Below, piece by piece: positions 25,347 through 41,130 of a DNA stretch of 56,201 nucleotides. How positions within the stretch are numbered: position 1 is the first letter of the stretch; each line of letters begins with the position of its first letter. A model generated the notes under the pieces. It saw nothing but the letters and a program-made list of their open reading frames with translations, did no database searches and was not told the origin of the DNA. Source of the stretch: Longimicrobium sp. GTDB lineage: Bacteria > Gemmatimonadota > Gemmatimonadetes > Longimicrobiales > Longimicrobiaceae. Location of the stretch: the NCBI GenBank assembly GCA_036377595.1, contig DASUYB010000040.1:1-56201 (forward strand). The letters run 5' to 3'. The position numbers and the translations under genes were made by a program.

Positions 25347-27401
25347 TCACGGCGCCGGACGGATGCGGATGGCCTGGCCGCCGCCGGGCGCCAGCACCAC
25401 GCGCAGCCGCGTCGCGCTGGTCACGTTCTGCCGCGAGATGGCGACGGGGAGCGGGTTGTCGCGCCAGTTGGCGCCGGGGCCGTCGGCGTAGATCTCCGCG
25501 ACGTAGCGGCGCCCGGGGGTGAGGAAGCCGAGCGGCACGTCGAAGGTGCGCCCCTCCTCGTCGGTGATGGCGCCGAAGAACCAGGTGTCGGCGCCGCGCT
25601 GCTTCCGCGCGACGAGGACGTAGTCGCCGATGCGGCCCTGCAGCACGCGCGTGGTATCCCAGTCCACCGCCACGTCGCGGATGAACTGGAAGGCGGGCTG
25701 CCCCTCGTAGTTCTCGGGCAGGTCCGCCGCCATCTGCAGCGGCGAGTAGAGCACGACGTACAGGGCGAGCTGCTTCGCGAGCGTGGTGCGCGGCCGCGGC
25801 TCCTCGGGGCGGCGCGGCTGGCCGTTGGCGCTGCGGAGGAGCAGGTCGAAGATCCCCGGGGTGAAGTCCATCGGCCCGGTCAGCATCCGCGTGAAGAAGA
25901 GGATGGTCTCGTGCTCGGGCGGGTTGCCGCCTTCCCCGCCCCACGCGTTGTACTCCATCCCCCGCGCGCCCTCGCGGGCCATGATGTTGGGCCAGGTACG
26001 CCGCTCGCCGGTGTCCTTGATGGGCTCGTGCACGTCCACCATCAGCCCGTAGCGCGCCGCCGTCTCGATCACCCGGCGGTGGTGGCGCACCATGAACTGC
26101 CCCTGGTGCGCGTGCCCCTGTTCGGTGTAGTCGCCCACGTAGCCGGTCTTCACCGCGCGCACGCCCACGCGCTGGTACAGCGCCATCGCCGAGTCCAGCT
26201 GCCGCTCGTAGTTGCCGATCACCGTGGCCGTCTCGTGGTGGCCGATCAGCGTGAGCCCCTTCTGCCGCGCGTAGGCCGCCAGCCCCGGCAGGTCGAAGTC
26301 GGGATAGGGCTGGGTGAAGGAGAAGTTGGCCTTCCCCGTGTTGAACCAGTCCACGTCCCACCCCGTGTTCCACCCCTCCACCAGCGTGCCGCCCAGCCCG
26401 TTGGCCGCGGCGAAGTCGAGGTAGCGTCGGGTGTTGGCCGTCGTGGCCCCGTGCTTCGGACCGGAGCCCCAGGTCTGCGTGTTGATGTGCATCCCCCACC
26501 AGATGCCGTTGTACTTCATCGGCCTGATCCAGCTGGTGTTCTGGATCCGGCTGGGGGGATTGAGGTTGAGGGTGAGGACGGAGGGCGCCAGGTCCTCCAC
26601 CCGGTCGGCGAGCTGGAGGGTGCGCCAGGGGGTGACGAAGGGCGCCGTCCCCCGCACCGCCACGCCGTCCGCCCACTTGGCGAGGTACGACCGCAGCGTC
26701 CGCCCGCCCTCGCGCGTGTTCACCAGGTACATCCCCGCGTAGTCGACCAGGTTGGCCTCGTGGACGACGACCTGCACGCCGCTGGTCAGCTGCAGCGTCA
26801 GCGGCGTCTGCACGCTGTCGAGCCGGCTGATGGGGCCCGACGAGTACAGGCGCTCCTGGCGGTCGGGGTCGCAGCAGGTGGAGGGGATCCACCACGCCCG
26901 CCCGTTGTCGGCGAAGGCGAACTCGGTGAGCTCCTCCATCATCTCGAACTCGCGGAAGCCGGCGCTGTCCGACACCTCGTAGCGGAAGCCGAGCCCGTCG
27001 TCGAACACGCGGAAGACCACGGCGAAGCGGCGGCCGGGCGCCCTGTCCTCCGCGACGCGAACGCGCAGCTCGCGGTGATGGTCGCGCACGCGCGCCACCT
27101 CGCCCCAGGGCTGCGTCCACACGGTGTTGGCCGAGTCGCGCGACGCGCCGGTGATGCGCAAGCCGGTGCGCAGCGAGTCACCCCCGCGGAACGCGAACCC
27201 CAGCCGCGACGGCATGAGGATGTTCTTCCCGTCGCGGGTGACCGCGTACCAGAGCTGCCCCTCGCGCACGCCCACCGTCACCCGGTTGCGCCCGTCGGGC
27301 GAGGCCACGCGCATCTCCTGCTGCGCCACCGCCGGCGACGCCAGCGCGGCCAGTCCCGCGGCCACGGCGATGCGAACCAGCCTCCGCGACGATCTCCCCA
27401 T
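25347..27401 (-). CDS. GH97 alpha-glucosidase, SusB-like (inverting type)
   Basis: About 684 residues. The ATG at 27401 is preferred because AGGAGAG lies five bases upstream. The signal peptide ends SPAVAQ. GH97 features: a long N-terminal beta-sandwich, the barrel start GGTLVEGWNTGWDVDW, VKTGYVGDY, MVDVHEPIKDTGERRTWPN and EYNAWGGEGGNPPEHE. In retaining GH97 enzymes an Asp follows VK; here the VKTG form is that of the inverting SusB type. It would cleave maltose and longer alpha-glucosides in the periplasm, with the Glu residues of the HEP and GGEGG blocks as base and acid candidates. It stands in the susC/susD operon, the same partners as in the Bacteroides starch system. Confidence 0.93.
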   Translation of the reverse strand: MGRSSRRLVRIAVAAGLAALASPAVAQQEMRVASPDGRNRVTVGVREGQLWYAVTRDGKNILMPSRLGFAFRGGDSLRTGLRITGASRDSANTVWTQPWGEVARVRDHHRELRVRVAEDRAPGRRFAVVFRVFDDGLGFRYEVSDSAGFREFEMMEELTEFAFADNGRAWWIPSTCCDPDRQERLYSSGPISRLDSVQTPLTLQLTSGVQVVVHEANLVDYAGMYLVNTREGGRTLRSYLAKWADGVAVRGTAPFVTPWRTLQLADRVEDLAPSVLTLNLNPPSRIQNTSWIRPMKYNGIWWGMHINTQTWGSGPKHGATTANTRRYLDFAAANGLGGTLVEGWNTGWDVDWFNTGKANFSFTQPYPDFDLPGLAAYARQKGLTLIGHHETATVIGNYERQLDSAMALYQRVGVRAVKTGYVGDYTEQGHAHQGQFMVRHHRRVIETAARYGLMVDVHEPIKDTGERRTWPNIMAREGARGMEYNAWGGEGGNPPEHETILFFTRMLTGPMDFTPGIFDLLLRSANGQPRRPEEPRPRTTLAKQLALYVVLYSPLQMAADLPENYEGQPAFQFIRDVAVDWDTTRVLQGRIGDYVLVARKQRGADTWFFGAITDEEGRTFDVPLGFLTPGRRYVAEIYADGPGANWRDNPLPVAISRQNVTSATRLRVVLAPGGGQAIRIRPAP

Positions 27402-27459
27402 CTCCACTCTCCTCATCCCTCGTTCTTTCGTTCGTCTTCGGATTATGCGCGACGATGCG

Positions 27460-27504
27460 AGTGAACTCGCGGCTACAACGACACGCAGTCCGCCTTCGCG
27501 GACT
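27460..27504. repeat. dispersed repeat ending in a CTTCG hairpin, copy 2
   Basis: The same unit as 17255-17300: ACTCGCGGCTACAACGACAC then AGTCCGCCTTCGCGGACT (27487-27504), between the alpha-amylase and GH97 genes. Confidence 0.65.
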
Positions 27505-27512
27505 TCAACCGA

Positions 27513-29108
27513 TCACAGCTTCGTCGCGGCGTCGATGGCGATGGCGGTGTTCGCGGCCAGGTTGAGCTGCACCGATCCCGCCGCATCGATGATGATGCTC
27601 GTGCCCACGCACGACGCGCCGGTGCGGCCGCCGGTCAGCAGGTCGCAGTACGTCCCCGCGGGGAGGCCCGTCGCCACCGGGGTGGAGACGGCGGCGGCGT
27701 TGCGGTTGATCGCCACGAAGCCCTTGTTGCCGCGCGAGAAGGCGATCGCGTTGGCGCCGTCGTCCCACCAGTGATTCACGTCCGTCCCCGCCACCCGCCG
27801 GCGGAAGCCCACCATCCGCGCGATGTACGGGTCGCGGTGCTCGCACACCCACTGCCCCACCGCCGCCGTCTCCAGGCTCGCGGCGCAGCTGACGGGGAGC
27901 GTCCAACCGTTCGCGTCGCTGGGCGGGCCCATGTCGTTCTGCGCCGGGCGGTTGAACGCGTAGGCGGAGAGGATGGAGGGATAGCCGTAGGGCTGCGCCA
28001 GCATCCACACGTTGGCCAGGCGGAAGGTCTGCCCGTCGCGGTAGGAGATGCCGCCCGCGTGCTGCGTGTCGTGGTTCTGCAGGAAGACCACGGCCTTGTC
28101 CGACGGCATCAGCCCCCACGCCGCCTCGGAGAACTGGCTCCCCGCCGGGCCGTTGGGGTTGAGCTGGGAGATGCGCTGCCCGCCGTTGCCCAGGAACTTG
28201 TCCTGCACCCCGGTGAAGATGAACTCGGTGATGTCGGCCGCGCCGCCGGTCGAGTATCCCTCGCCGAAGTAGTCCTGCGGACGCAACGCCTCGCCCGAGC
28301 CGCCGATCACCTCCAGGAACCAGTACGGCAGCGGCCGCCCTTCGCTCGCCAGCGTCTGGTTGACCAGGTCCAGGATCTGGTCCAGCTCCACCTGCTGCAT
28401 GTGCTTCGCGGCGTCGATGCGGAACCCCGCGACGCCCAATCTCGCCAGGCCGATCAGATAATCCGCGATCTTCTGCCGCACCGACGACGAGCCGGTGTTG
28501 AGATCCGGCAGCCCCAGCAGCTCGCAGTCCTGCACGTTGGCGGCGTCCTGGTAGTTCGAGACGCCGCAGATGGGGTGATGGAAGTCGGACTCGGTGTAGA
28601 GGCCGGGATAGCTGTACTTGCTGTACGCGGTGCCGTTGCTCCCCGTCCCCGGGCTGGGAAAGTTGGTCATGTGGTTGATGACCGCGTCCACGTAGATCCC
28701 CACGCCCACCGCCCTGCACCGGCTCACCATGTCGATGAACTCGACGCGCGTCCCCGAGCGGCTCCGGTCGATGGAGTAGCTGACCGGCTGGTAGCGCTCG
28801 CTCCAGTCGTGGTTCGGGGTGATGGAGTGCTCCTGCGGGGGAGAGACCTGGACCGCCGCGAACCCCGCGGGGCCAAGGACGGTCTCGCACTCCGTGGCGA
28901 TGTCGGTCCACCGCCACTCGAACAGGTGCACGAACACGTCGCCCGCCGCCATGTGCCCGCTGGGGCGATAGGTGGGATCGAGCGACGGCCGCCCCGCCGG
29001 CGGCGGCTCCACAGGGGGCGGGGTAATCTCCCCTCCCCCTCCGCCGCCGCACGCGGCGAGCGTGGAGACGAGCAGCGCAGCCAGGATCCAGCGAAATCTC
29101 GAAATCAC
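27513..29108 (-). CDS. lipoprotein GH13 alpha-amylase
   Basis: About 531 residues. The GTG at 29108 is chosen because AGGA lies six bases upstream and a lipoprotein signal follows (ILAALLVSTLAACGGG). A Gly/Pro linker (EITPPPVEPPP) leads to a catalytic barrel with FEWRWTDIATECE, DAVINHM, GFRIDAAKHM (nucleophile), EVIGG (acid/base) and FLQNHDTQH. This is the layout of animal-type (GH13_24-like) alpha-amylases. The C-terminal beta domain has VAINRNAAAV. It should be exposed on the cell surface and cut starch into oligosaccharides for the SusC/SusD importer. Confidence 0.92.
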   Translation of the reverse strand: MISRFRWILAALLVSTLAACGGGGGGEITPPPVEPPPAGRPSLDPTYRPSGHMAAGDVFVHLFEWRWTDIATECETVLGPAGFAAVQVSPPQEHSITPNHDWSERYQPVSYSIDRSRSGTRVEFIDMVSRCRAVGVGIYVDAVINHMTNFPSPGTGSNGTAYSKYSYPGLYTESDFHHPICGVSNYQDAANVQDCELLGLPDLNTGSSSVRQKIADYLIGLARLGVAGFRIDAAKHMQQVELDQILDLVNQTLASEGRPLPYWFLEVIGGSGEALRPQDYFGEGYSTGGAADITEFIFTGVQDKFLGNGGQRISQLNPNGPAGSQFSEAAWGLMPSDKAVVFLQNHDTQHAGGISYRDGQTFRLANVWMLAQPYGYPSILSAYAFNRPAQNDMGPPSDANGWTLPVSCAASLETAAVGQWVCEHRDPYIARMVGFRRRVAGTDVNHWWDDGANAIAFSRGNKGFVAINRNAAAVSTPVATGLPAGTYCDLLTGGRTGASCVGTSIIIDAAGSVQLNLAANTAIAIDAATKL

Positions 29109-29191
29109 CACGGGTCCTTCAGCTCGGCTGATGCAACCACGCCCCGCAGCGCCGCCGGGGTGCGGCAGCGGCTGCGGGGCGAGGGTGGCGC

Positions 29192-29217
29192 GGAGGGCGC
29201 CCCGAAAGGCGCCCTCC
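29192..29217 (-). terminator. hairpin between susD and the amylase gene
   Basis: A perfect 10-base stem, GGAGGGCGCC (29192-29201) and GGCGCCCTCC (29208-29217), with loop CCGAAA, 16 bases past the susD stop codon. Probably a partial terminator that lowers expression of downstream enzymes relative to susC/susD. Confidence 0.6.
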
Positions 29218-29232
29218 CCGTCGTGCGCGGGC

Positions 29233-30801
29233 TCAGTAGCCCGCATTCTGGGTCAGGTTGGGGTTGGCCAGCAGCTCCGACGAGGGAATCGGGTACAGGT
29301 CGCGGAACGCCTCCGTCACCTTCCCCGGCTTCACGCCGCCCTTCCACTGCCAGATCCCCGCGGTGGTGTACGTGCCGAAGCGGATCAGGTCGGTGCGGCG
29401 GTGCGCCTCCCAGAACAGCTCGCGCGCCCGCTCGTCCTTGATGAACGGCAGCGTCAGCTGCGCCGCGGTGATGTTGCCCGTGGCGTTGCCGTAGGCGCGC
29501 TGCCGCAGCGCGTTCACGTAGGCCAGCGCCTGCGCCTGCGTGCCGCCCCCGCCGCGCAGGAAGATCTCGGCGTACATCAGGTACGCGTCGGCCAGGCGGA
29601 ACATCGGGAAGTCGGTGTCGGGGAAGGTGGCGTTCGACCCCGGCTGCCCGCCCGACGTCACGTTCGAGTACTTGGGCGCGCCCACGCCGTCGTTGAAGTT
29701 GCCGATGCTGCCGATGTCGTTCGTCTGCCCGCTGGTGAAGAAGAACGCCCCGCGCGCGTCGCCGGCCGAGTACAGGTTGTAGACCTCGGGGCGCACCCGC
29801 AGCCCCCACCACCCGCCGTCGATCCCGTAGTTGGCCGAGTTCATGTTGCCGCCCACGGCCGCGTGCACCAGGAAGGTCATCCCGCCCCAGGTGCGCGTGT
29901 GCGCGCCGTCCGACGGCACCGCGAACACGATCTCGTCCGACGTGTTGTTGTCGGCCAGGAACAGGTGCCGGTAGCTGGGGTCCAGCGAGTAGGCGCCCGA
30001 GCCGATCACGTTCTGCACCGCCACCAGCGCGTCGGCCAGGCGCGGGGTGCCGGTGTACACGCCGGCGTTCAGGTACAGCTTGGCCAGCAGCATGTCCACC
30101 GCGCCGCGGTCGGCGCGCCCGTACTCGCCCGCGCCGGCCGCCGGAAGGCTGCCGCGGATGGCGTTCAGCTCGCTGACCACGAAGTTGAACACCTCGGCCC
30201 GCGTGCTCTGCGTGGGCGGCGTGGCGCCGATCTGGAAGTCTTCGGTCACCAGCGGCACGTTGCCGAACAGGTCGATCCCGTGCCAGTAGCTGAGCGCCCG
30301 CAGGAAGCGCGCTTCGGCGCGGTACTGGTGCACCTGGTTGACCAGGTCGGTGCCGGCGTTGCGCCCCTGCAGCTTCTGGTCGGTGGTCTCGCGCAGGAAC
30401 TCGTTGACCAGCGACACCTGGAAGAAGATGCGGTAGTACATCGCCGCCAGGAACGGGTTGGCCGCGCCCCACAGCTGCGTGTTCAGCTCGGGGAGCCCGT
30501 CGTCGCCCCAGCCGATCACCGCCTCGTCGGTCGGCAGCTCCTCGAGCTGCCAGTACTGGCGCAGGTAGTGGCTGAAGCCCTCGTCGATCCCCTCGATGTC
30601 GGCGCCACCGGCGGGGCCCTGCTGCCCCGTCACCTGCAGGCCGCCGTAGATCTTGGCCAGGAACGCCCGGTACGAGCTCGGGTCGTTGAAGATGTTGGAG
30701 CCCGTCACCGAGCTCTCGGGCTCGGTGGTGATGTCGGTGCACCCCGCGGCGCCCACCAGCAGGAGCGCCGCCGCGGCCACCGCCGCCGTGCGCAGTCTCA
30801 T
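29233..30801 (-). CDS. susD: SusD/RagB-family glycan-binding lipoprotein
   Basis: About 522 residues beginning MRLRTAAVAAAALLLVGAAGC, a lipoprotein signal. A start two codons earlier (30807) is also possible, but AGGAG spacing favours 30801. Helical repeats of the SusD fold are evident: QYRAEARFLRALSYWHGIDLF, VDMLLAKLYLNAGVYTG and, near the end, PFIKDERARELFWEAHRRTD. The C-terminus DLYPIPSSELLANPNLTQN is highly typical. It caps the SusC channel on the outer surface and binds incoming starch oligosaccharides. It lies 23 bases after susC. Confidence 0.95.
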   Translation of the reverse strand: MRLRTAAVAAAALLLVGAAGCTDITTEPESSVTGSNIFNDPSSYRAFLAKIYGGLQVTGQQGPAGGADIEGIDEGFSHYLRQYWQLEELPTDEAVIGWGDDGLPELNTQLWGAANPFLAAMYYRIFFQVSLVNEFLRETTDQKLQGRNAGTDLVNQVHQYRAEARFLRALSYWHGIDLFGNVPLVTEDFQIGATPPTQSTRAEVFNFVVSELNAIRGSLPAAGAGEYGRADRGAVDMLLAKLYLNAGVYTGTPRLADALVAVQNVIGSGAYSLDPSYRHLFLADNNTSDEIVFAVPSDGAHTRTWGGMTFLVHAAVGGNMNSANYGIDGGWWGLRVRPEVYNLYSAGDARGAFFFTSGQTNDIGSIGNFNDGVGAPKYSNVTSGGQPGSNATFPDTDFPMFRLADAYLMYAEIFLRGGGGTQAQALAYVNALRQRAYGNATGNITAAQLTLPFIKDERARELFWEAHRRTDLIRFGTYTTAGIWQWKGGVKPGKVTEAFRDLYPIPSSELLANPNLTQNAGY

Positions 30802-30824
30802 GGTCATCTCTCCTTGCGTTCTCC

Positions 30825-33800
30825 TCAGAACCCGATGCTGACGCCGGCCGAGAAGGTCCGGGAGCGCGGGTAGATGTTGTTGTCGATGCCGCCGAGACCC
30901 GCCTCGGGGTCGACGCCGCTGTAGCCGCTCAGGGTGAACACGTTCTGGATGGTGCCGAACACGCGCATGCTCTGCACCTGGCGCAGCCGCGGGAGCGTGT
31001 ACCCCAGCGTCAGGTTGTCCATGCGCAGGAACGACGCGTCCTCGACGTACCAGTCGGAGAAGAACTGCGGCTGCACGAAGTTGGTCTCCAGCACCGACGC
31101 GTGCAGGTTGATGGGGCCGCTGGCCTGGTTCAGCAGGTTGTACCACCCCTGGCTCGAGGCCAGGTTGTTGTACACGTAGTTCCCCAGGTAGGCGCGCAGC
31201 GTGAAGCTCATGTCCAGGTTGCGCCACCCCACCTGCGAGGTGTGCGCCAGGATCCAGGTGGGCGTGGGCGAGTGGAACGGGCGCCGGTCTTCCGAGGTGA
31301 TCTGGTTGTCGCCGTTCCGGTCCACGTACATGTCGAGCAGGTTGTTGCTGTACACCGGCTTGCCGTTCGAGTCGAGCTTGTGCTCGAACACGAAGAACGA
31401 GTTCACCGGCACGTCGGGCTGCAGCACCTGGATGCGGCTCCCCACGCCGCCCGAGATGTTCCCCACCAGGATGCGGTCGCTGGTCGAGGCCAGCGGGTTG
31501 ATGCTCAGCAGCCGGTTCCTGTTGGTCGACGCGTTGAAGCTGGCGTTCCACGACAGCCCGCGGTTGGCGCCGCGCAGCACCTGCGCGTTCACGCTCACCT
31601 CGAAGCCGGTGTTGCGCATGCTGCCGATGTTGGTGGTCACGAAGTTCGACAGGTTCGTCCCCGCGGCCACCGGGATGCGGAAGAGCAGGTCGTCGGTGTC
31701 CTTCACGTAGTACTCGAGGCTGCCGGTGATGCGGTTGTCGAACAGCCCGTAGTCGAGCCCCACGTTCCACGAGGTGGTCTCCTCCCACTTGATGTTGGGG
31801 TCGACGGCGCTCGGGCGGATGGTGGTGACGAAGGTGTTGCCGAACTGCACCTGGGCGAACTGGTCGCCGTAGGTGTAGGCCGGGGCCCACAGGTAGTCGC
31901 CGATGGCCTGGTTGCCGTTGACGCCCCACGAGCCGCGCAGCTTGAGCTCCGACAGCGGCGTGCTCTGCGGGAACCACGACTCCTCGTTCACCCGCCACCC
32001 CAGCGCGGCCGCCGGGAAGGTGCCCCACTGGTTGGCCGGCCCGAAGCGCGACGAGCCGTCACGCCGCACGGAAAGGGTGAGGAGATAGCGGTCCATCAGC
32101 GTCCAGTTCACCCGGCCGAAGAACGAGGCCAGCCGCGTCTCGCGGGTGAACAGCGTGGGCACGTTCTCCACCGCGGTGGGCACGCCGTTGATCCCCAGCA
32201 GATCCGACGACAGCCCGCGCGCGTAGAACGCCGGGTAGTCGCCGTCGGTCGACTGGTACGAGTAGCCCGCCGTGGCGTCCACGTCGCTGTTCAGCCCGCC
32301 CAGGCGCTTCTGGTAGGTCAGGAAGGCGTCGACCAGCCCGGTGGTCTCGCTCGGGTTCGAGCGGCTGACGGTGCCGGTGGGGCAGGGCGAGCTGGTGCAC
32401 GACACCGGGTTCTCGATCTGCGACTGCAGCGTGCTGGGGAAGAAGGAGCGCCGCTCCGACTTGGCCACGTCGTAGCCCAGGCGCACCGTCCCCGACAGCG
32501 CCTCGAGGAAGGGCATCTGGTAGCGTGCCTCCACGTCGCCGATGCTGCGGTAGGTCGTTCCCTGGTCCACCACCAGCGCCAGCTCGGCCACCGGGTTGTT
32601 CGGCGCCAGCGTGAACGCCGTCTGCTCGAAGAACGACCCCGACCCCGTGCGGATGGACTGCGTGGGATCGAAGTTGGTGGCGCTTCCCAGCACCGCGCCC
32701 GGGGTGAAGTCGTCGTTGGTGCGGGCGCCGCGCAGGTTTGCGCGGATGTTCAGCCGGTTGTCGAACAGCCGGTGGTTGTAGTTCAGCGCGGCCGAGGCGC
32801 GGTCCAGGCTCGACCCGCGCACCACGCCGTCCTGCTTCAGGTAATTCAGCGACAGGCGGTAGTTCATGTTCTGCCCGCCCGCCCCCGCGATGGCCAGCGA
32901 GTGCTCCTGCCCCACGCCGTGGCGCTCCACCGCGGCCCGCCAGTCGGTGCTGGCGTTGCCCAGGTAGGAGACGCGCGACGGCGCGTGCTGCGCCACGGCC
33001 GCGCGGAACTGGTCGGCCGTCAGCATGTCGGGCTGGCGGATGATGCTCGAGGTGGAGAACGAGTTGCTGTAGGTGAACTGCGGGCCGCGCGTGGCCCCCG
33101 TCTTGGTCTCCACGATGATCACGCCGTTGGCGCCGCGCGAGCCGTAGATGGCCGTCGACGAGGCGTCCTTCAGCACCGTGATGCGCGCGATGTCGTCGGG
33201 GTTGATGAAGTTCAGCGGGTTGCGCCCGGCCGACAGGCCGCCGCCCGGCTCCAGCGGCACGCCGTCGACCACCACCAGCGGCTCGTTGCTGGCGTTCACG
33301 CTGGTGCCGCCGCGGATGCGGATGCTGGTGCCGCCGCCGGGCTCGCCCGTCGTGACCACCTGCACGCCGGCCACCTTCCCCTGCACCAGCTGCTCGGGAG
33401 AGACCACGCGGCCGGTGTTGAACTCCTCGGCGCCCACGGCCTGCACCGAGCCGGTCACGTCGCGCACCCGGCGCTCGCCGTAGCCGATGGCCACCACGCC
33501 GGTGAGGGCCACGGCCGAGGGCTGGAGGGTGAAGTTGGCGGTGGCCGTCTGGCCGGCCGCCACCGTCACCGCCTGGGTCGAGGGCGCGTGCCCCAGCACG
33601 GTGGCGGTCACGCGCTGCGCGCCCGCGGGCGCGTTCAGCGTGTAGCGCCCGTCGGGCCCCGTCACCGCGCGCGCCGAGGTGCCCGCCACCGTGACCGTGG
33701 CCCCGGAGAGCGCGCGCCCGCCGTCGGCCGAGGTGACGCTGCCGGTGACCTGCCCCGTTTGTGCGTACAGCGGACCGCCGGCGCATAGCGCGGCGATCAT

Positions 33801-33827
33801 GCTCACGAATACTGTCCGCCTCATCAT
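30825..33827 (-). CDS. susC: SusC/RagA-family TonB-dependent outer-membrane transporter
   Basis: A 1000-residue receptor that imports alpha-glucan oligosaccharides across the outer membrane using TonB energy. The ATG at 33827 has GGAGG four bases before it and is followed by a signal peptide (ending GGPLYAQ). A carboxypeptidase-regulatory-like domain (GQVTGSVTSADGGRALSGA) comes next. The plug has VAIGYGERRVRDVTGSV, GTSIRIRGGTSVNASNEPL and VVVDGVPL, with LKDASSTAIYGSRGANGVI. A 22-stranded barrel ends in the aromatic C-terminus GVSIGF. Two operator-like repeats, a promoter and a LacI-type palindrome lie upstream. Confidence 0.96.
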   Translation of the reverse strand: MMRRTVFVSMIAALCAGGPLYAQTGQVTGSVTSADGGRALSGATVTVAGTSARAVTGPDGRYTLNAPAGAQRVTATVLGHAPSTQAVTVAAGQTATANFTLQPSAVALTGVVAIGYGERRVRDVTGSVQAVGAEEFNTGRVVSPEQLVQGKVAGVQVVTTGEPGGGTSIRIRGGTSVNASNEPLVVVDGVPLEPGGGLSAGRNPLNFINPDDIARITVLKDASSTAIYGSRGANGVIIVETKTGATRGPQFTYSNSFSTSSIIRQPDMLTADQFRAAVAQHAPSRVSYLGNASTDWRAAVERHGVGQEHSLAIAGAGGQNMNYRLSLNYLKQDGVVRGSSLDRASAALNYNHRLFDNRLNIRANLRGARTNDDFTPGAVLGSATNFDPTQSIRTGSGSFFEQTAFTLAPNNPVAELALVVDQGTTYRSIGDVEARYQMPFLEALSGTVRLGYDVAKSERRSFFPSTLQSQIENPVSCTSSPCPTGTVSRSNPSETTGLVDAFLTYQKRLGGLNSDVDATAGYSYQSTDGDYPAFYARGLSSDLLGINGVPTAVENVPTLFTRETRLASFFGRVNWTLMDRYLLTLSVRRDGSSRFGPANQWGTFPAAALGWRVNEESWFPQSTPLSELKLRGSWGVNGNQAIGDYLWAPAYTYGDQFAQVQFGNTFVTTIRPSAVDPNIKWEETTSWNVGLDYGLFDNRITGSLEYYVKDTDDLLFRIPVAAGTNLSNFVTTNIGSMRNTGFEVSVNAQVLRGANRGLSWNASFNASTNRNRLLSINPLASTSDRILVGNISGGVGSRIQVLQPDVPVNSFFVFEHKLDSNGKPVYSNNLLDMYVDRNGDNQITSEDRRPFHSPTPTWILAHTSQVGWRNLDMSFTLRAYLGNYVYNNLASSQGWYNLLNQASGPINLHASVLETNFVQPQFFSDWYVEDASFLRMDNLTLGYTLPRLRQVQSMRVFGTIQNVFTLSGYSGVDPEAGLGGIDNNIYPRSRTFSAGVSIGF

Positions 33828-33972
33828 GCATCCTCCAAGGGGGGTGGATCGGGCAGCCCGGCCGGGCTGCGGAAACGGTGGTGCGCGAAGGGTGGGGGCA
33901 CCCGCGCCGGGCGGTGCCTGCCGGGCCGCTTCGCGCCGGCGCCCGGATGGTGGATCCGGGGCCGCGGCCCTG

Positions 33973-33993
33973 TTTGTCAAGACTCCCAACAAA
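33973..33993. promoter_or_regulatory. ROK-type operator, susC-proximal copy
   Basis: TTTGTCA, seven bases (AGACTCC), CAACAAA. The left half is identical to the glk operator, and the spacing is the same. Confidence 0.6.
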
Positions 33994-34061
33994 TTCGAGG
34001 CGACGATGCCCCCGTTCTGTCCCTGGGCTCGGGGCCGCGGGATCGGGAGGGCGCGCGCTAG

Positions 34062-34082
34062 TTTGTTAACGAAACCGACAAA
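34062..34082. promoter_or_regulatory. ROK-type operator, distal copy
   Basis: TTTGTTA, seven bases (ACGAAAC), CGACAAA. It lies 89 bases from the proximal copy, between the promoter and susC, so repression by road-block or looping is possible. Confidence 0.6.
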
Positions 34083-34191
34083 TTGCGCTCGACGCTGAGG
34101 TGACTCGCGGCTGCTCGAGCCGGCCAGCGGACCGTCCGGGTGTGCGGGTAGGGATTCCTGCGACGCGGTCGTTACGGGTTGAATCGCCCAT

Positions 34192-34220
34192 ATCGTAATC
34201 ATGTGACATGTGCGTGTCAA
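34192..34220 (-). promoter_or_regulatory. susC operon promoter
   Basis: On the minus strand TTGACA (34215-34220) is followed by 17 bases and TACGAT (34192-34197). Transcription would start near 34185. Confidence 0.65.
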
Positions 34221-34265
34221 CAACATTTCGCCCGCACGGGGGCCCATAAATCGTTGCCCCGCCTG

Positions 34266-34279
34266 TGTAAACGTTTCCA
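34266..34279. promoter_or_regulatory. LacI/GalR-type operator-like palindrome
   Basis: TGTAAACGTTTCCA with a perfect AAACGTTT core, close to the TGWAAACGNTWNCA pattern of CcpA/LacI-family sites. It lies about 45 bases upstream of the susC -35 element. No LacI-family gene is in the window. Confidence 0.4.
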
Positions 34280-34337
34280 CTCCAGACCTCCCGCCGCGGG
34301 CCCGCCAGTCTCATTTCGGGAGAGGCGATCGGGGGAT

Positions 34338-34413
34338 TCTCACGCAGAGGGCGCAGAGGACGCAGAGGAAGAATTCGACGATTCAGTGATCCCTCTGTGC
34401 CCTCTGCGTGAGA
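34338..34413. repeat. CTCACGCAGAG inverted repeat, copy 1
   Basis: Perfect 15-base arms TCTCACGCAGAGGGC (34338-34352) and GCCCTCTGCGTGAGA (34399-34413), with CGCAGAGGA repeats inside. A related structure lies at 54058-54118. It ends just before the GH2 stop codon and may act as its terminator. Confidence 0.7.
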
Positions 34414-34423
34414 CCTCTTTCGA

Positions 34424-37054
34424 TCAGCCGGGGCGGAAGGGCTCGCGCGCGCTCCCGGGCGGGGCGCTGACGGGGATGCGGATCTTCTCCGTCCCCTCGT
34501 CCAGCGCGACGACCACGCGGCCGCCGGAGACCAGCGCCGCCCGCACCTTCGCCGCGCCGGCGACGGGGGCGCGGTAGAGCGGCGATCGCGCGGTGGGCGC
34601 GCTCCCGTCGGCCGTGTAGCGCAGCTCGAACCTCGGCGTCGCGCCGGACGTCACCGCGCTGGCGCCGAGCACGCGCACCTCGCCGCCGCGGCGGACGACG
34701 GAGAGCGCGAACACTGCACCGGGCGCGGCGCCGGGCTCCGTCTGCGCCAGGATGCTGGCGATCCCCTCGTCCGTCGCGAACGGGTTGGCGCCGACCAGGG
34801 CCATCCCGCCGGTCGCGCCGAACGCCACGTTCTCCCACGCGTCCGCCACGATCGTCCCCGCCATGTCGCGCAGGGCGGAGTGGCAGAAGAGCACGTCCTT
34901 CGCCTCGCGCGCGTGCGGCGCGCCGGCGACGTCGATCTCCAGGCTCATCCGCGCGACGGGGCCGGGCGTGCGCACCGTGTGGCGCGCCATCTCCCGTCCC
35001 CCGACGAAGCCGACCGCCTCCAGCGCGCCCGGGGTGAATCTCCCCAGGCGGAAGGTGAAGGGCGGGTGCGCCAGGTGCGCGCTGATCCGGTCGCGGTCGG
35101 GCCGGCGCCGCTCGATCGCCCGCCCGTTCAGCCGCAGCTCCACCTCGTCGCAATTGCTGAACACGCGCACGTCCGCTGGCGACGCGGGCGTCCACTCCGT
35201 GGCGATCCACACCATCGGCCCGGAATCGGCGTTCGCCAGGCGCTCGAGCGCGTCGCGCTGGCTGCGGAAGAAGCGGTACGAGTACTTCGGCAGGCGAAAG
35301 ATATCGGCGCAGCCGGACGACTCGATGTCGGGGGAATACCCCCGGTTGTAGTCGTACATCACCCACAACCCGTCGGCGAAAGCGGCCGTGGCGCGGTTGT
35401 CGTTGTGCGCCTCCTGGAAATTCGTGGCCTGCTGCAGCATCGCCCGCTCACCCTGCCAGCGCAGCTGCCGGCTGTTGCTTTCCGCGGGCGTAAGTCCCTG
35501 CCACGACTCCTGGTTCAGCCCCGCGGTCATCGCGTAGTACTCCCAGTCGCCGTACTCGCTGACCACGCAGGCGGGCTCCGTCTCCCTGGTACATCCCCCG
35601 TGCTGGCGCGCCTGGATGAACACGTCGTAGCCCTTCATCCACCCGCAGGTGAAGCACTGGTCGCCGGGATACTCCTCGTGCGCGATGGCGTGCGTGCGGC
35701 GGATGAACTCGGGCGGCATCGCGGTCTCGTTCAGCGACACCTCCCACATCACCACCGACGGGCGGTTGCGATCGCGGCGCACCAGCTCGCGCGCGTTGCG
35801 ATATTGCAGCTCGGTGAACGCCGGGTCGGGGCCGAAGTACTGCCAGCCGGGGATGCAGTTCATCACCACGATCCCCAGCTCGTCGCACGCGTCCATGAAC
35901 GCCGGCGAATGGGGATAGTGGGAGAGGCGGATGTAGTCGAACCCGGCGTCCTTGATCTTCCGCGCGTCGCGGTGCTGCGCCGCCTCGGGGACGGCGTAGC
36001 CGACGTACGGGTATTCCTGGTGGCGATTGGTCCCGCGCAGGAACATCCGCTCGCCGTTGATGCGGAACCCCTCGCGGGAGATCTCGATGCGCCGGATGCC
36101 GATCCGTGTCTCCTCCGCGTCGACCGCGTGTCCGCCCTCGACGATCTCCGTGCGCAGCGTGTAGAGGTTGGGCGCGCGCGGCGACCAGAGGCGCGGCTGG
36201 GCGACCTCGATCTCCTGCACCACCTCCGTCTCCCCCGCCCCGCGCAGCGTCACCGCGTCCGACGTCTCCATCGCCGCCGCCGCGCCGTCCCGCCCGACCA
36301 GCGTTGCGCGGACGCTGAAGGTGCGCGGCGCGGAGCCGTCGTTGCGCATGTGCGTCCGCACCCGCACGGTCGCCGAGCCTTGGGAGACGCGGGGATAGGT
36401 GACGAAGACGCCGCCGCTCGCCGGCCGGTCCGCGAGGATGGGGTCGGTGATGTGGAGCGGGTCCTTGGCGACGAGATGGACGTAGCGGTAGAGCCCGCCG
36501 TAGGTGTTGAAGTCGAGGAGATGCAGCGGCTTGGGGCCGGTGACCGGGTTGTCGCGGTCGTCCAGCCGCACGGCGAGCACCGCGTCCCGTCCCGGGGTGA
36601 TGCGGTCGGTGATGTCCAAGACGAAGGGGAGGAAGCCGCCGAGGTGGCGCCCCAGCGGCCGCCCGTCGAGATAGACGTCGGCCACGTTCATCGCCGCCTC
36701 GAACTTCACCCACACCCGCTTGCCCGCGAGCTCGGGGGTGATCCGGAGGGTGCGGCGGTACCAGCAGGTGCCCTGCCACTGGTACGTCGGCGAGCCCGGC
36801 GGGCCCGTGACCAGTGCCTCGACGCGCGCGGTGTGCGGCAGCGAGACGCGCTCCCACGCGCGGTCGTCGAACCCCGGCGCCTCCGCGCCGGCCGCCTCGC
36901 CGCGCAGGAAGCGCCAGCCGGTGTCCAGCCGCCACGCGCCGCCCGGCGGGGAGGCGATCCGTGCCGCCGCGGAGAGCCCGTTGTGGTCCAGCATCGCCGC
37001 GGCGCCCGCGGCCGCCACGGTGCGGATGAAGTCTCGACGCCTCATGCTCCCCAT
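34424..37054 (-). CDS. secreted GH2-family glycosidase (beta-galactosidase-like)
   Basis: About 876 residues from the ATG at 37054 (37045 is an alternative). MRRRDFIRTVAAAGAAAML is a twin-arginine signal, so the enzyme is exported folded. GH2 layout: sugar-binding domain with GTCWYRRTLRITPELAGKR and VYLDGRPLGRHLGGFLPF, an immunoglobulin-like domain, then a TIM barrel with LRGTNRHQEYPYVGYAVPE, DYIRLSHYPHSP, VSLNETAMP (acid/base Glu) and SEYGDWEYY (nucleophile Glu). The C-terminal FELRYTADGSAPTARSPLY resembles a chitobiase-type domain. The substrate is a beta-linked glycan, not starch, so it extends the range of the locus. Confidence 0.92.
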   Translation of the reverse strand: MGSMRRRDFIRTVAAAGAAAMLDHNGLSAAARIASPPGGAWRLDTGWRFLRGEAAGAEAPGFDDRAWERVSLPHTARVEALVTGPPGSPTYQWQGTCWYRRTLRITPELAGKRVWVKFEAAMNVADVYLDGRPLGRHLGGFLPFVLDITDRITPGRDAVLAVRLDDRDNPVTGPKPLHLLDFNTYGGLYRYVHLVAKDPLHITDPILADRPASGGVFVTYPRVSQGSATVRVRTHMRNDGSAPRTFSVRATLVGRDGAAAAMETSDAVTLRGAGETEVVQEIEVAQPRLWSPRAPNLYTLRTEIVEGGHAVDAEETRIGIRRIEISREGFRINGERMFLRGTNRHQEYPYVGYAVPEAAQHRDARKIKDAGFDYIRLSHYPHSPAFMDACDELGIVVMNCIPGWQYFGPDPAFTELQYRNARELVRRDRNRPSVVMWEVSLNETAMPPEFIRRTHAIAHEEYPGDQCFTCGWMKGYDVFIQARQHGGCTRETEPACVVSEYGDWEYYAMTAGLNQESWQGLTPAESNSRQLRWQGERAMLQQATNFQEAHNDNRATAAFADGLWVMYDYNRGYSPDIESSGCADIFRLPKYSYRFFRSQRDALERLANADSGPMVWIATEWTPASPADVRVFSNCDEVELRLNGRAIERRRPDRDRISAHLAHPPFTFRLGRFTPGALEAVGFVGGREMARHTVRTPGPVARMSLEIDVAGAPHAREAKDVLFCHSALRDMAGTIVADAWENVAFGATGGMALVGANPFATDEGIASILAQTEPGAAPGAVFALSVVRRGGEVRVLGASAVTSGATPRFELRYTADGSAPTARSPLYRAPVAGAAKVRAALVSGGRVVVALDEGTEKIRIPVSAPPGSAREPFRPG

Positions 37055-37583
37055 TGCGGAAAATCCACTCGGTGGGCCCCGTCTCCATCGTGGCGATTCC
37101 ATGCCATGGAGCGTAGCCGAAGATCGCCAACTGCGTTCATCAGGGGGATGGGTGCAGGGCCGGCGCACGTGCGTATCCGCCGCTTCCCGTCCTGGACGGG
37201 GCTGGCTCCTCTCGCATGCCCAGACTCCGATTCGCCGCACTCGCCCCTCGGCGCCGGGGCGATACCCTCCCTCCCACAACGCACGGAATACTTAAGCGAA
37301 TACTTAACTATCATCTCCGTGTCGCAGCACCCCACGCCCTGAGCATCCACCGGGCGTTCCGCGCCGGGTGCCGCGATGAAGATCCGACTCGGCCGCACGC
37401 CGGCGCTATGGAGAGGGCCGTTCTCTCGCCATCCTCGCAGAGCCTGCCCGTCATTCAGGGACACGCACCGGACGCTTGCCGGCACCGCAACCACCCGATG
37501 ACGCAGTTGAGAGAACTTCGGCCCGCACGTGAGTTGTGGCGAAGCGGATGAGCTGCGTCCGGGAGTTCGAGCCGGATTCCCGA
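37055..37583. other. intergenic region upstream of the GH2 gene
   Basis: It contains CAACTGCGTTCATCAGGGGG (37128-37147) and a 26-base motif at 37287-37312 holding AATACTTAAG and AATACTTAAC as 12-base-spaced direct repeats. Both resemble parts of the duplicated block after pfkA. GATGACGCAGTTGAGAGA (37498-37515) is the same word inverted. No ORF is supported. The motif lies about 230 bases upstream of the GH2 start. Confidence 0.5.
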
Positions 37584-40415: not shown

Positions 40416-40640
40416 ATGATCCGGCTGACCATCGACTCCCTGACGGTGACGTCGTTCGTGACGCAGGAAGCGTCGTGCGAGTGCCCCGAGCAGATCTGCA
40501 CCGGCGACATCAGCACCTGCCCGCGCACCAGCGACGAGGTGGGCTGCCCCTGCACCGCCGACATCACCGGCTGCCCCGACACCGCCGTCGTGGGCTGCGA
40601 GTGCTGCACGGCCGACATCAGCACCTGCCCCCGGCCCTGA
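40416..40640 (+). CDS. Cys-rich RiPP-like precursor peptide with threefold core repeat (peptide 1)
   Basis: A 74-residue peptide. The ATG at 40416 is preferred to the GTG at 40386 because GAGGAGG precedes it. The leader MIRLTIDSLTVTSFVTQ matches, as I recall it, the leader of pinensin-type lanthipeptides (L.(L/I)DSL.V.SFVT). The core has 11 cysteines plus many Thr and Ser, and three related units: CTGDISTCPRT, CTADITGCPDT and CTADISTCPRP. Cys plus Thr/Ser spacing would allow thioether or disulfide rings. No lanthipeptide synthetase or other modifying enzyme lies within the window. Family membership is moderate; existence as a gene is well supported. Confidence 0.75.
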   Translation: MIRLTIDSLTVTSFVTQEASCECPEQICTGDISTCPRTSDEVGCPCTADITGCPDTAVVGCECCTADISTCPRP

Positions 40641-40717
40641 ACCGGGTGCCCGAGCGTGGCCGTCACCGCGAAAGACGGCTCGACAGTTCGGGTCCCCGGT
40701 CATGCGACGATGACGAA

Positions 40718-40749
40718 CGGCCGCCCGACACATCTGCGTCGAGCGGCCG
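40718..40749. terminator. hairpin between convergent peptide genes
   Basis: CGGCCGC (40718-40724) pairs with GCGGCCG (40743-40749), between peptides 1 and 2. Only a 7-base stem, so a weak call. Confidence 0.4.
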
Positions 40750-40774
40750 CCGATGTACTGCAGGAACGCGTGGA

Positions 40775-40918
40775 TCAGCAGTGCGGCCCCACCGTGGGCG
40801 GATCGCAGAGCGGCGTACGCAGGGCGTTGGCTGCCGTCCCGGCGTCTTCCCGCGGCTCCGCCGTGGCGGCGAACGCCTCGACGCGCAGGCTTTCCGGGTT
40901 CGGCGTCAGCTTCTCCAT
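40775..40918 (-). CDS. RiPP-like precursor peptide (peptide 2)
   Basis: A 47-residue minus-strand peptide. The leader MEKLTPNPESLRVEAF has the same L...L.V.AF pattern as peptide 1. A Pro/Ala/Glu linker with AGTAAN follows, and the tail LCDPPTVGPHC holds two cysteines nine residues apart. AGGTG lies about six bases before the ATG. Too short for standard ORF calling but supported by leader similarity to the two neighbours. Confidence 0.6.
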   Translation of the reverse strand: MEKLTPNPESLRVEAFAATAEPREDAGTAANALRTPLCDPPTVGPHC

Positions 40919-40960
40919 CCGGGCACCTGGGGAACGAGGTGGATTACGCACGGCTCCTGC

Positions 40961-41130
40961 TCAGAGGCACAGGTCGGTTTGCGGACACCCGAAACGCGTG
41001 CAGTCGTGGCACGTCTGCGCTCCCTGCGTGATCATCTCGTGCGCGGCCACGGTCCCGCGCTCCCGGGCAGGGGGTCCGCCGCGAACGAGTCGATCCGCAG
41101 GGCGTCGACGTCTAGGCACAGCTTCGTCAC
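40961..41130 (-). pseudogene. RiPP-like precursor peptide interrupted by a frameshift (peptide 3)
   Basis: A GTG at 41130, preceded by GAGAGG, opens VTKLCLDVDALRIDSFAADP, a leader like the other two. The frame then shifts at a CCCCC run (around 41070-41080) and the upstream frame stops early. The next frame continues as ERGTVAAHEMITQGAQ and then TCHDCTRFGCPQTDLCL with four cysteines, ending in TGA at 40963. The 170-base span is one base short of a whole number of codons. Either a real mutation or a homopolymer sequencing error. Confidence 0.6.

Follow-up and report, generated by a model that had tools for sequence, protein, structure and literature searches.

Three genes of a Longimicrobium sp. 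contig as probable members of a genome-wide library of class I lanthipeptide-type precursors

The analysed window, a 56,201-nucleotide stretch of Longimicrobium sp. DNA, contains three short genes, designated peptides 1, 2 and 3 (Table 1), which an initial annotation had described as precursors with a common leader and different Cys-containing cores. Peptide 1 is convergent with the other two, as had been stated, and its core contains repeated CT[AG]DI[ST]xC units. The stretch with complementary ends lying between peptides 1 and 2 is a possible shared terminator of both genes; it has two copies on contig C151 of the congener genome G003 (L129 and L135 1501-1534; identity of 94% and 91% across the 34 bases) and did not occur a second time in the examined parts of the Longimicrobium sp. 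genome (G000). On one side, the peptides are flanked by a gene row resembling a polysaccharide-use locus, and on the other by a gene for a laminin-G/Kelch protein. A local modifying enzyme was sought and rejected: the eight called of the 22 larger ORFs of the window include none, and the whole contig gave no match to a LanB, LanC or elimination domain, in agreement with the initial annotation.

Table 1. Features of the window and of the two lanthipeptide enzyme loci of the genome
Feature	Position	Strand	Description
Gene row beside the peptides	25347-37279	-	GH97, TonB-dependent receptor with CarbopepD_reg_2 domain, GH2
Peptide 1	40416..40640	+	Precursor, 74 aa, open frame, 11 Cys; short leader IRLTIDSLTVTSF
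34-base stretch	40716..40749	.	Complementary ends, between peptides 1 and 2
Peptide 2	40775..40918	-	Full-leader precursor, 47 aa, open frame, 2-Cys core
Peptide 3, tail part	40961..41063	-	ERGTVAAHE... with 4 Cys; frame differs from that of the leader
Peptide 3, leader part	41032..41130	-	GTG start at 41130; from the ORF list; leave-out profile 9e-6
C103 locus			Order: PF04738 (1154 aa), PF14028 (343 aa, separate), LANC_like (704 aa), 10 precursors, ABC transporter, HlyD
C98 locus			LanC, ABC, LanB (placed by six-frame search), PF14028, two precursors with a different leader

The relatedness of the three leaders was assessed with a leave-out profile made from 151 seeds of this genome, with peptides 1 and 2 withheld; the fragment of peptide 3 had not been used as a seed at any stage. 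Among 945 ORF segments of the window, this profile gave i-E-values of 6e-7 for peptide 2, 9e-6 for the leader part of peptide 3, 5.6e-4 for peptide 1 and 0.005 for the tail part of peptide 3, and the best value beyond these peptides was 0.43. The leave-out profile and the reversed ORFs, which gave no leader-profile matches, together rule out a chance resemblance of the three peptides. The common leader proposed initially is borne out for all three, but peptide 3 is not one open frame; the literal motif L.(I/P/L)...(S/A)L(T/R)(V/I).(A/S)F describes peptides 2 and 3, but, in our reading, not peptide 1, where the first half is two residues shorter. A search with the profile A2 found peptide 2 at 6e-11, peptide 2 itself being among the 20 rows of A2.

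The model NF038180 (leader_pinensin) gave peptide 1 a score of 16.6 bits, below its curated cut-off of 24 bits, and did not match peptides 2 and 3, for which no curated leader model was found to match; a Pfam search at E<=1 revealed no Nif11-type leader or LanM family match in any of the three. A public pattern scan with peptide 1 alone returned 37 matches, none of them a relative.

The leader frame of peptide 3 runs into a nonsense end and then a stop at 41032, going out of frame before the core. An intact homologue exists in the congener G001 (81% identity over ~200 bases), and the alignment with it places a single one-base gap in the window near 41063/41064, which is either a real frameshift or an assembly error; barring a sequence error at this point, peptide 3 is likely to be silent in this genome. 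The tail differs from its G001 counterpart by four nonsynonymous and eight synonymous changes (dN 0.054, dS 0.472), and, since it is conserved, the break would be recent or a sequence error. The initial counts of 11, 2 and 4 Cys in unrelated tails are correct, but the four Cys of peptide 3 are out of frame with its leader, so that the picture of three intact leader/core peptides is partly confirmed. The frameshift in peptide 3, the shortness and weak coding score of peptide 2 and the lack of a homologue of the peptide 2 core in the searches made would fit the view that the three copies in the window are remnants in decay, irrespective of the state of the other family members. We regard this view as unlikely: besides the conserved tail of peptide 3, peptide 1 has a homologue in the genome G009 (contig C41) that carries an ICTGDISTC stretch. 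The core type of peptide 1 recurs there, though the leader profile barely matches this homologue (E 0.3 for 1000 sequences). Decay is not general either, because the sole precursor with fewer than two Cys among the 230 found in the genome is the peptide 3 fragment.

The genome-wide search recommended in the initial annotation revealed many further copies of the leader. A first pass with a regular expression on the first 60 stretches yielded 159 ORFs, among which a few were evidently no precursors, and a profile made from 153 of the leaders so obtained matched forward ORFs 208 times (raw count, E<=0.1) and reversed ones not at all. After removal of duplicates, the selected sequence, 1.52 Mb in all, contained 230 precursors at E<=0.01 (236 at E<=1), the window's three included, distributed over 112 places and 62 contigs. 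Another 605 kb (0.61 Mb), taken regardless of leader matches, contained two more, which brings the total to at least 232 in one genome and, by extrapolation, would leave some 17 in the remaining 5 Mb. No precursors were contained in eight stretches where leaders were not expected. As the profile was trained on many of the precursors, the reversed ORFs and the leave-out test serve as independent checks; in an alignment search, all 150 scored candidates (150 of 480) were matched, the weakest at 4e-6. The contamination estimate of the assembly, 4.8%, is too small for contamination to be the source of the library, and two congeners have similar loads. NF038180 gave at least 122 matches at E<=10 over the genome (150 of 171 candidates scored), and its cut-off, which defines leader_pinensin membership and is reached by none of the window peptides, is exceeded at nine other places, so that the family of this genome does include members; the weak matches alone prove nothing, because sub-cut-off matches also occur in 8 of 14 control genomes.

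The precursors are 32-126 aa long (median 69), and their Cys number has a median of 6 and reaches 25 at most (n=230). The leader consensus reads approximately M-K/R-K-L-x-L-D-x-D-x-L-x-V-E-S-F-x-T, with GTVxAH coming next in most cases: 182 of the 230 precursors have GT[VIM] after the leader and 42 have GG, while 48, peptide 1 included, lack GTV. Thus, a conserved, nearly Cys-free and Lys-rich leader (0.2% Cys, 12.2% Lys) is joined to more than 200 different cores that are rich in Cys and Thr and nearly free of Lys (15.5% Cys, 12.9% Thr, 0.7% Lys). In 1500 random pairs of each kind, leaders were 52.6% identical vs. 21.4% after shuffling, and cores 30.1% vs. 27.8%, with the leader/core border being wrongly placed by the splitter in some peptides, including two of the window's. 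All cores but one (229/230) have at least two Cys and a Ser or Thr shortly before a Cys. Of 112 pairs of neighbouring precursors less than 500 bases apart, 106 share a strand, which makes the convergent pair of the window unusual.

Searches for lanthionine synthetases near the leader copies, also recommended initially, revealed two loci with a split LanB and a LanC, one with ten adjoining precursors (C103) and one with two (C98). At C103, LanB consists of two proteins, matching PF04738 with 140.9 bits (cut-off 28) and PF14028 with 146.3 bits (cut-off 24.4), and LanC matches PF05147 with 173 bits (cut-off 23.2); the latter contains WCHG and CHG strings like those of the zinc sites of LanC proteins. 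Of the features of a class I lanthipeptide system, LanB, LanC and precursors with a leader and a Cys/Ser/Thr core are present at the level of the genome; (methyl)lanthionine rings in the product would complete the set. Only 12 of the 230 precursors are near lanthipeptide enzymes, and the remaining 218 are away from the LanB/LanC loci; together with the co-occurrence in relatives described below, this agrees with the initial proposal that the enzyme acts in trans or lies elsewhere. The outcome named there as contradicting the proposal, no more leader copies and no enzymes, was put to the test and was not observed, and the interpretation, as distinct from the observation of three intact peptides, is supported. 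Double-glycine processing, the marks of which are a GG ahead of the core and a C39 transporter encoded nearby, was not found: the C103 transporter has no C39 domain, such domains occurring in the genome only on contigs C17, C13 and C68. A leader protease was not identified. Two isolated genes were also noted, a lone LanB-like gene (G000:C1:12835-14748) and a weak LanC-like gene (G000:C145:62836-63825) in which WCxG/CHG strings were not found; no precursor was scored in the stretches around either.

The C98 locus is a split class I set like that of C103, with LanC, ABC transporter, LanB, elimination protein and precursors, but its leaders read RTF where those of the library read ESF, and the elimination proteins of the two loci are 43% identical. 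One of its cores (G000:C98:18824-19096, L110 12325-12597), as well as a core in another genome (G007:C30:18999-19241, L141), is a long run of Cys-Ser/Cys-Thr repeats, unlike the library cores. In a rival view, the shared leader would not equal a single system, and several enzyme sets would serve the precursors, C103 modifying its neighbours, and C98 or other RiPP enzymes (radical SAM, YcaO, LanM) the scattered ones; we consider this possible but rather doubtful. The second split set with its own precursors, the isolated LanB-like and LanC-like genes on C1 and C145 and the precursors without GTV, which could be a separate group, speak for such a division of labour. Against it, G007 and G020 possess only an elimination protein grouping with that of C98 (support 97/87) and no library leaders at the thresholds used, and no RiPP enzyme was found among the ten neighbours of five arrays, which comprise FtsH, M1 and M24 peptidases, FtsX, ABC parts, a DNA glycosylase and others. 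The one modification system assumed in the initial annotation is likely rather than proven, C98 being a second, divergent locus with two precursors of its own, and peptides 2 and 3 being without a match to a curated leader model.

The distribution of leaders and enzymes was compared in 41 genomes. PF14028 is present in ten of them, and leaders at E<=1e-12 in six, all among these ten (Fisher p 4.7e-5, a statistic that ignores kinship). At E<=1e-9, applied to 12 genomes with up to 150 candidates scored in each, at least 75 leaders were found in G001, 70 in G003, 25 in G009, 21 in G015, 15 in G014 and 4 in G002, and none among the candidates scored in G005, G006, G007, G018, G021 and G022. Proteins at least 55% identical to the C103 elimination protein occur in G000, G001, G002, G003, G008, G009, G014 and G015, a type defined by identity and not by a supported clade, and with further G014 copies left out; leaders were seen in these same eight genomes (8/8) and not in the other 33 of the 41 at the thresholds used, which for most of the 33 means E<=1e-12 only. 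The enzyme locus of G003 retains orthologous precursors; six pairs were compared, with good conservation in some of them and not in others. Conservation of orthologous cores across species is illustrated by a pair with dN 0.024 and dS 0.325, and some C103 orthologue pairs are little constrained.

The leader profile at E<=0.05 also matches ORFs in 20 of the best 80 of 184 public elimination-protein loci, which ties the leader to pinensin-type class I systems. The matching loci belong to four phylum-level groups, Gemmatimonadota, Acidobacteriota, Ignavibacteria-type and Bacteroidota (Chitinophaga included), and most of those from Bacteroidota have GG in place of the GTV of the library. It is very improbable that the peptides carry no rings and are secreted or cytosolic Cys-rich peptides which bind metal or form disulfides. 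Their very high Cys content would suit such a function, and no product is known, but the conserved part is, in our reading, a leader that is charged and lacks any hydrophobic signal stretch, Ser and Thr together equal or outnumber Cys in 220 of the 230 cores, and the leader travels with the enzyme across genomes and is common to precursors beside LanB/LanC-type enzymes in other phyla.

The three genes of the window are thus, judging by sequence comparison, probably part of a library of class I lanthipeptide-type precursors that extends over the genome; the library itself is best read as pinensin-related, putatively modified in trans and organised like the prochlorosins. The C103 enzymes would bind the leader, LanB being the likely binder, and dehydrate core Ser and Thr residues by way of glutamylation and elimination; LanC would then couple Cys to the dehydrated residues, forming (methyl)lanthionine rings, an unclustered protease may cleave near the GTVxAH stretch, and the products would be exported. 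In this scheme, peptides 1 and 2 would be modified in trans. The products are perhaps, as a guess, a mixed secreted arsenal.

The split LanB with a separate elimination protein at C103 corresponds to that of the pinensins of Bacteroidota, as described for these (PMC7268733), and the leader is of the same type; the differences are the number of precursors, over 200 in a genome and most of them distant from the enzymes, and the mostly GTVxAH stretch after the leader, GG prevailing in the Bacteroidota relatives. The likeness to the prochlorosins and SyncA of picocyanobacteria, which are class II and modified by ProcM/SyncM, concerns organisation only: one conserved leader is followed there by hypervariable cores, and precursor genes are scattered singly and in tandem, with the enzyme in trans (PMC10783134). 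Here, however, the enzymes are class I LanB/LanC, the leader is pinensin-like and the number of precursors is about 2.8 times the largest count found in print, the two largest being 83 and 79 (PMC10783134). For Longimicrobium terrae, a table in the draft-genome paper lists three lanthipeptide clusters without a precursor count (PMC7291104), and no description of such a library in Gemmatimonadota was found in the literature searched (including PMC7291104, PMC8692599, PMC11251773 and PMC9248904), a coverage that excludes most subscription journals.

A more specific proposal seems to us to have a slightly better than even chance of being correct: a single class I set (split LanB and LanC) would modify about 250 hypervariable precursors in trans, a tolerance of the ProcM kind having arisen in class I, with the leader cut at GTVxAH instead of GG and with a library larger than any found in print and kept in several related Gemmatimonadota species. 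The natural libraries of one enzyme and many substrates found in print are class II and have at most 83 precursors (PMC10783134). If the proposal is true, the existence of over 200 precursors in a class I system would mean that leader-guided tolerance is independent of LanM, a large natural set of cores would become available for trial against one enzyme pair, and the reason for keeping so many different cores would become testable.

The arrangement of the precursor genes varies from single genes to arrays, the largest containing 13, 11, 9, 9 and 8 precursors. Core families built by BLAST without composition correction were discarded, since 99 cores were chained into one group; the k-mers enriched upstream of the genes, considered as a shared promoter, are TGC-rich and lead to no conclusion because the array member lying before each gene may contribute them with its core. 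An 11.7-kb contig (G000:C20:1388-11453, L052) carries 24 precursors, broken up by a few ordinary genes, e.g., for aminopeptidase P. Four adjacent precursors on another contig (G000:C29; L056 11837-12900) have a common CCTGCVSGCGxxPTxGGC core, doubled in one of them, and this group is probably a recent local expansion.
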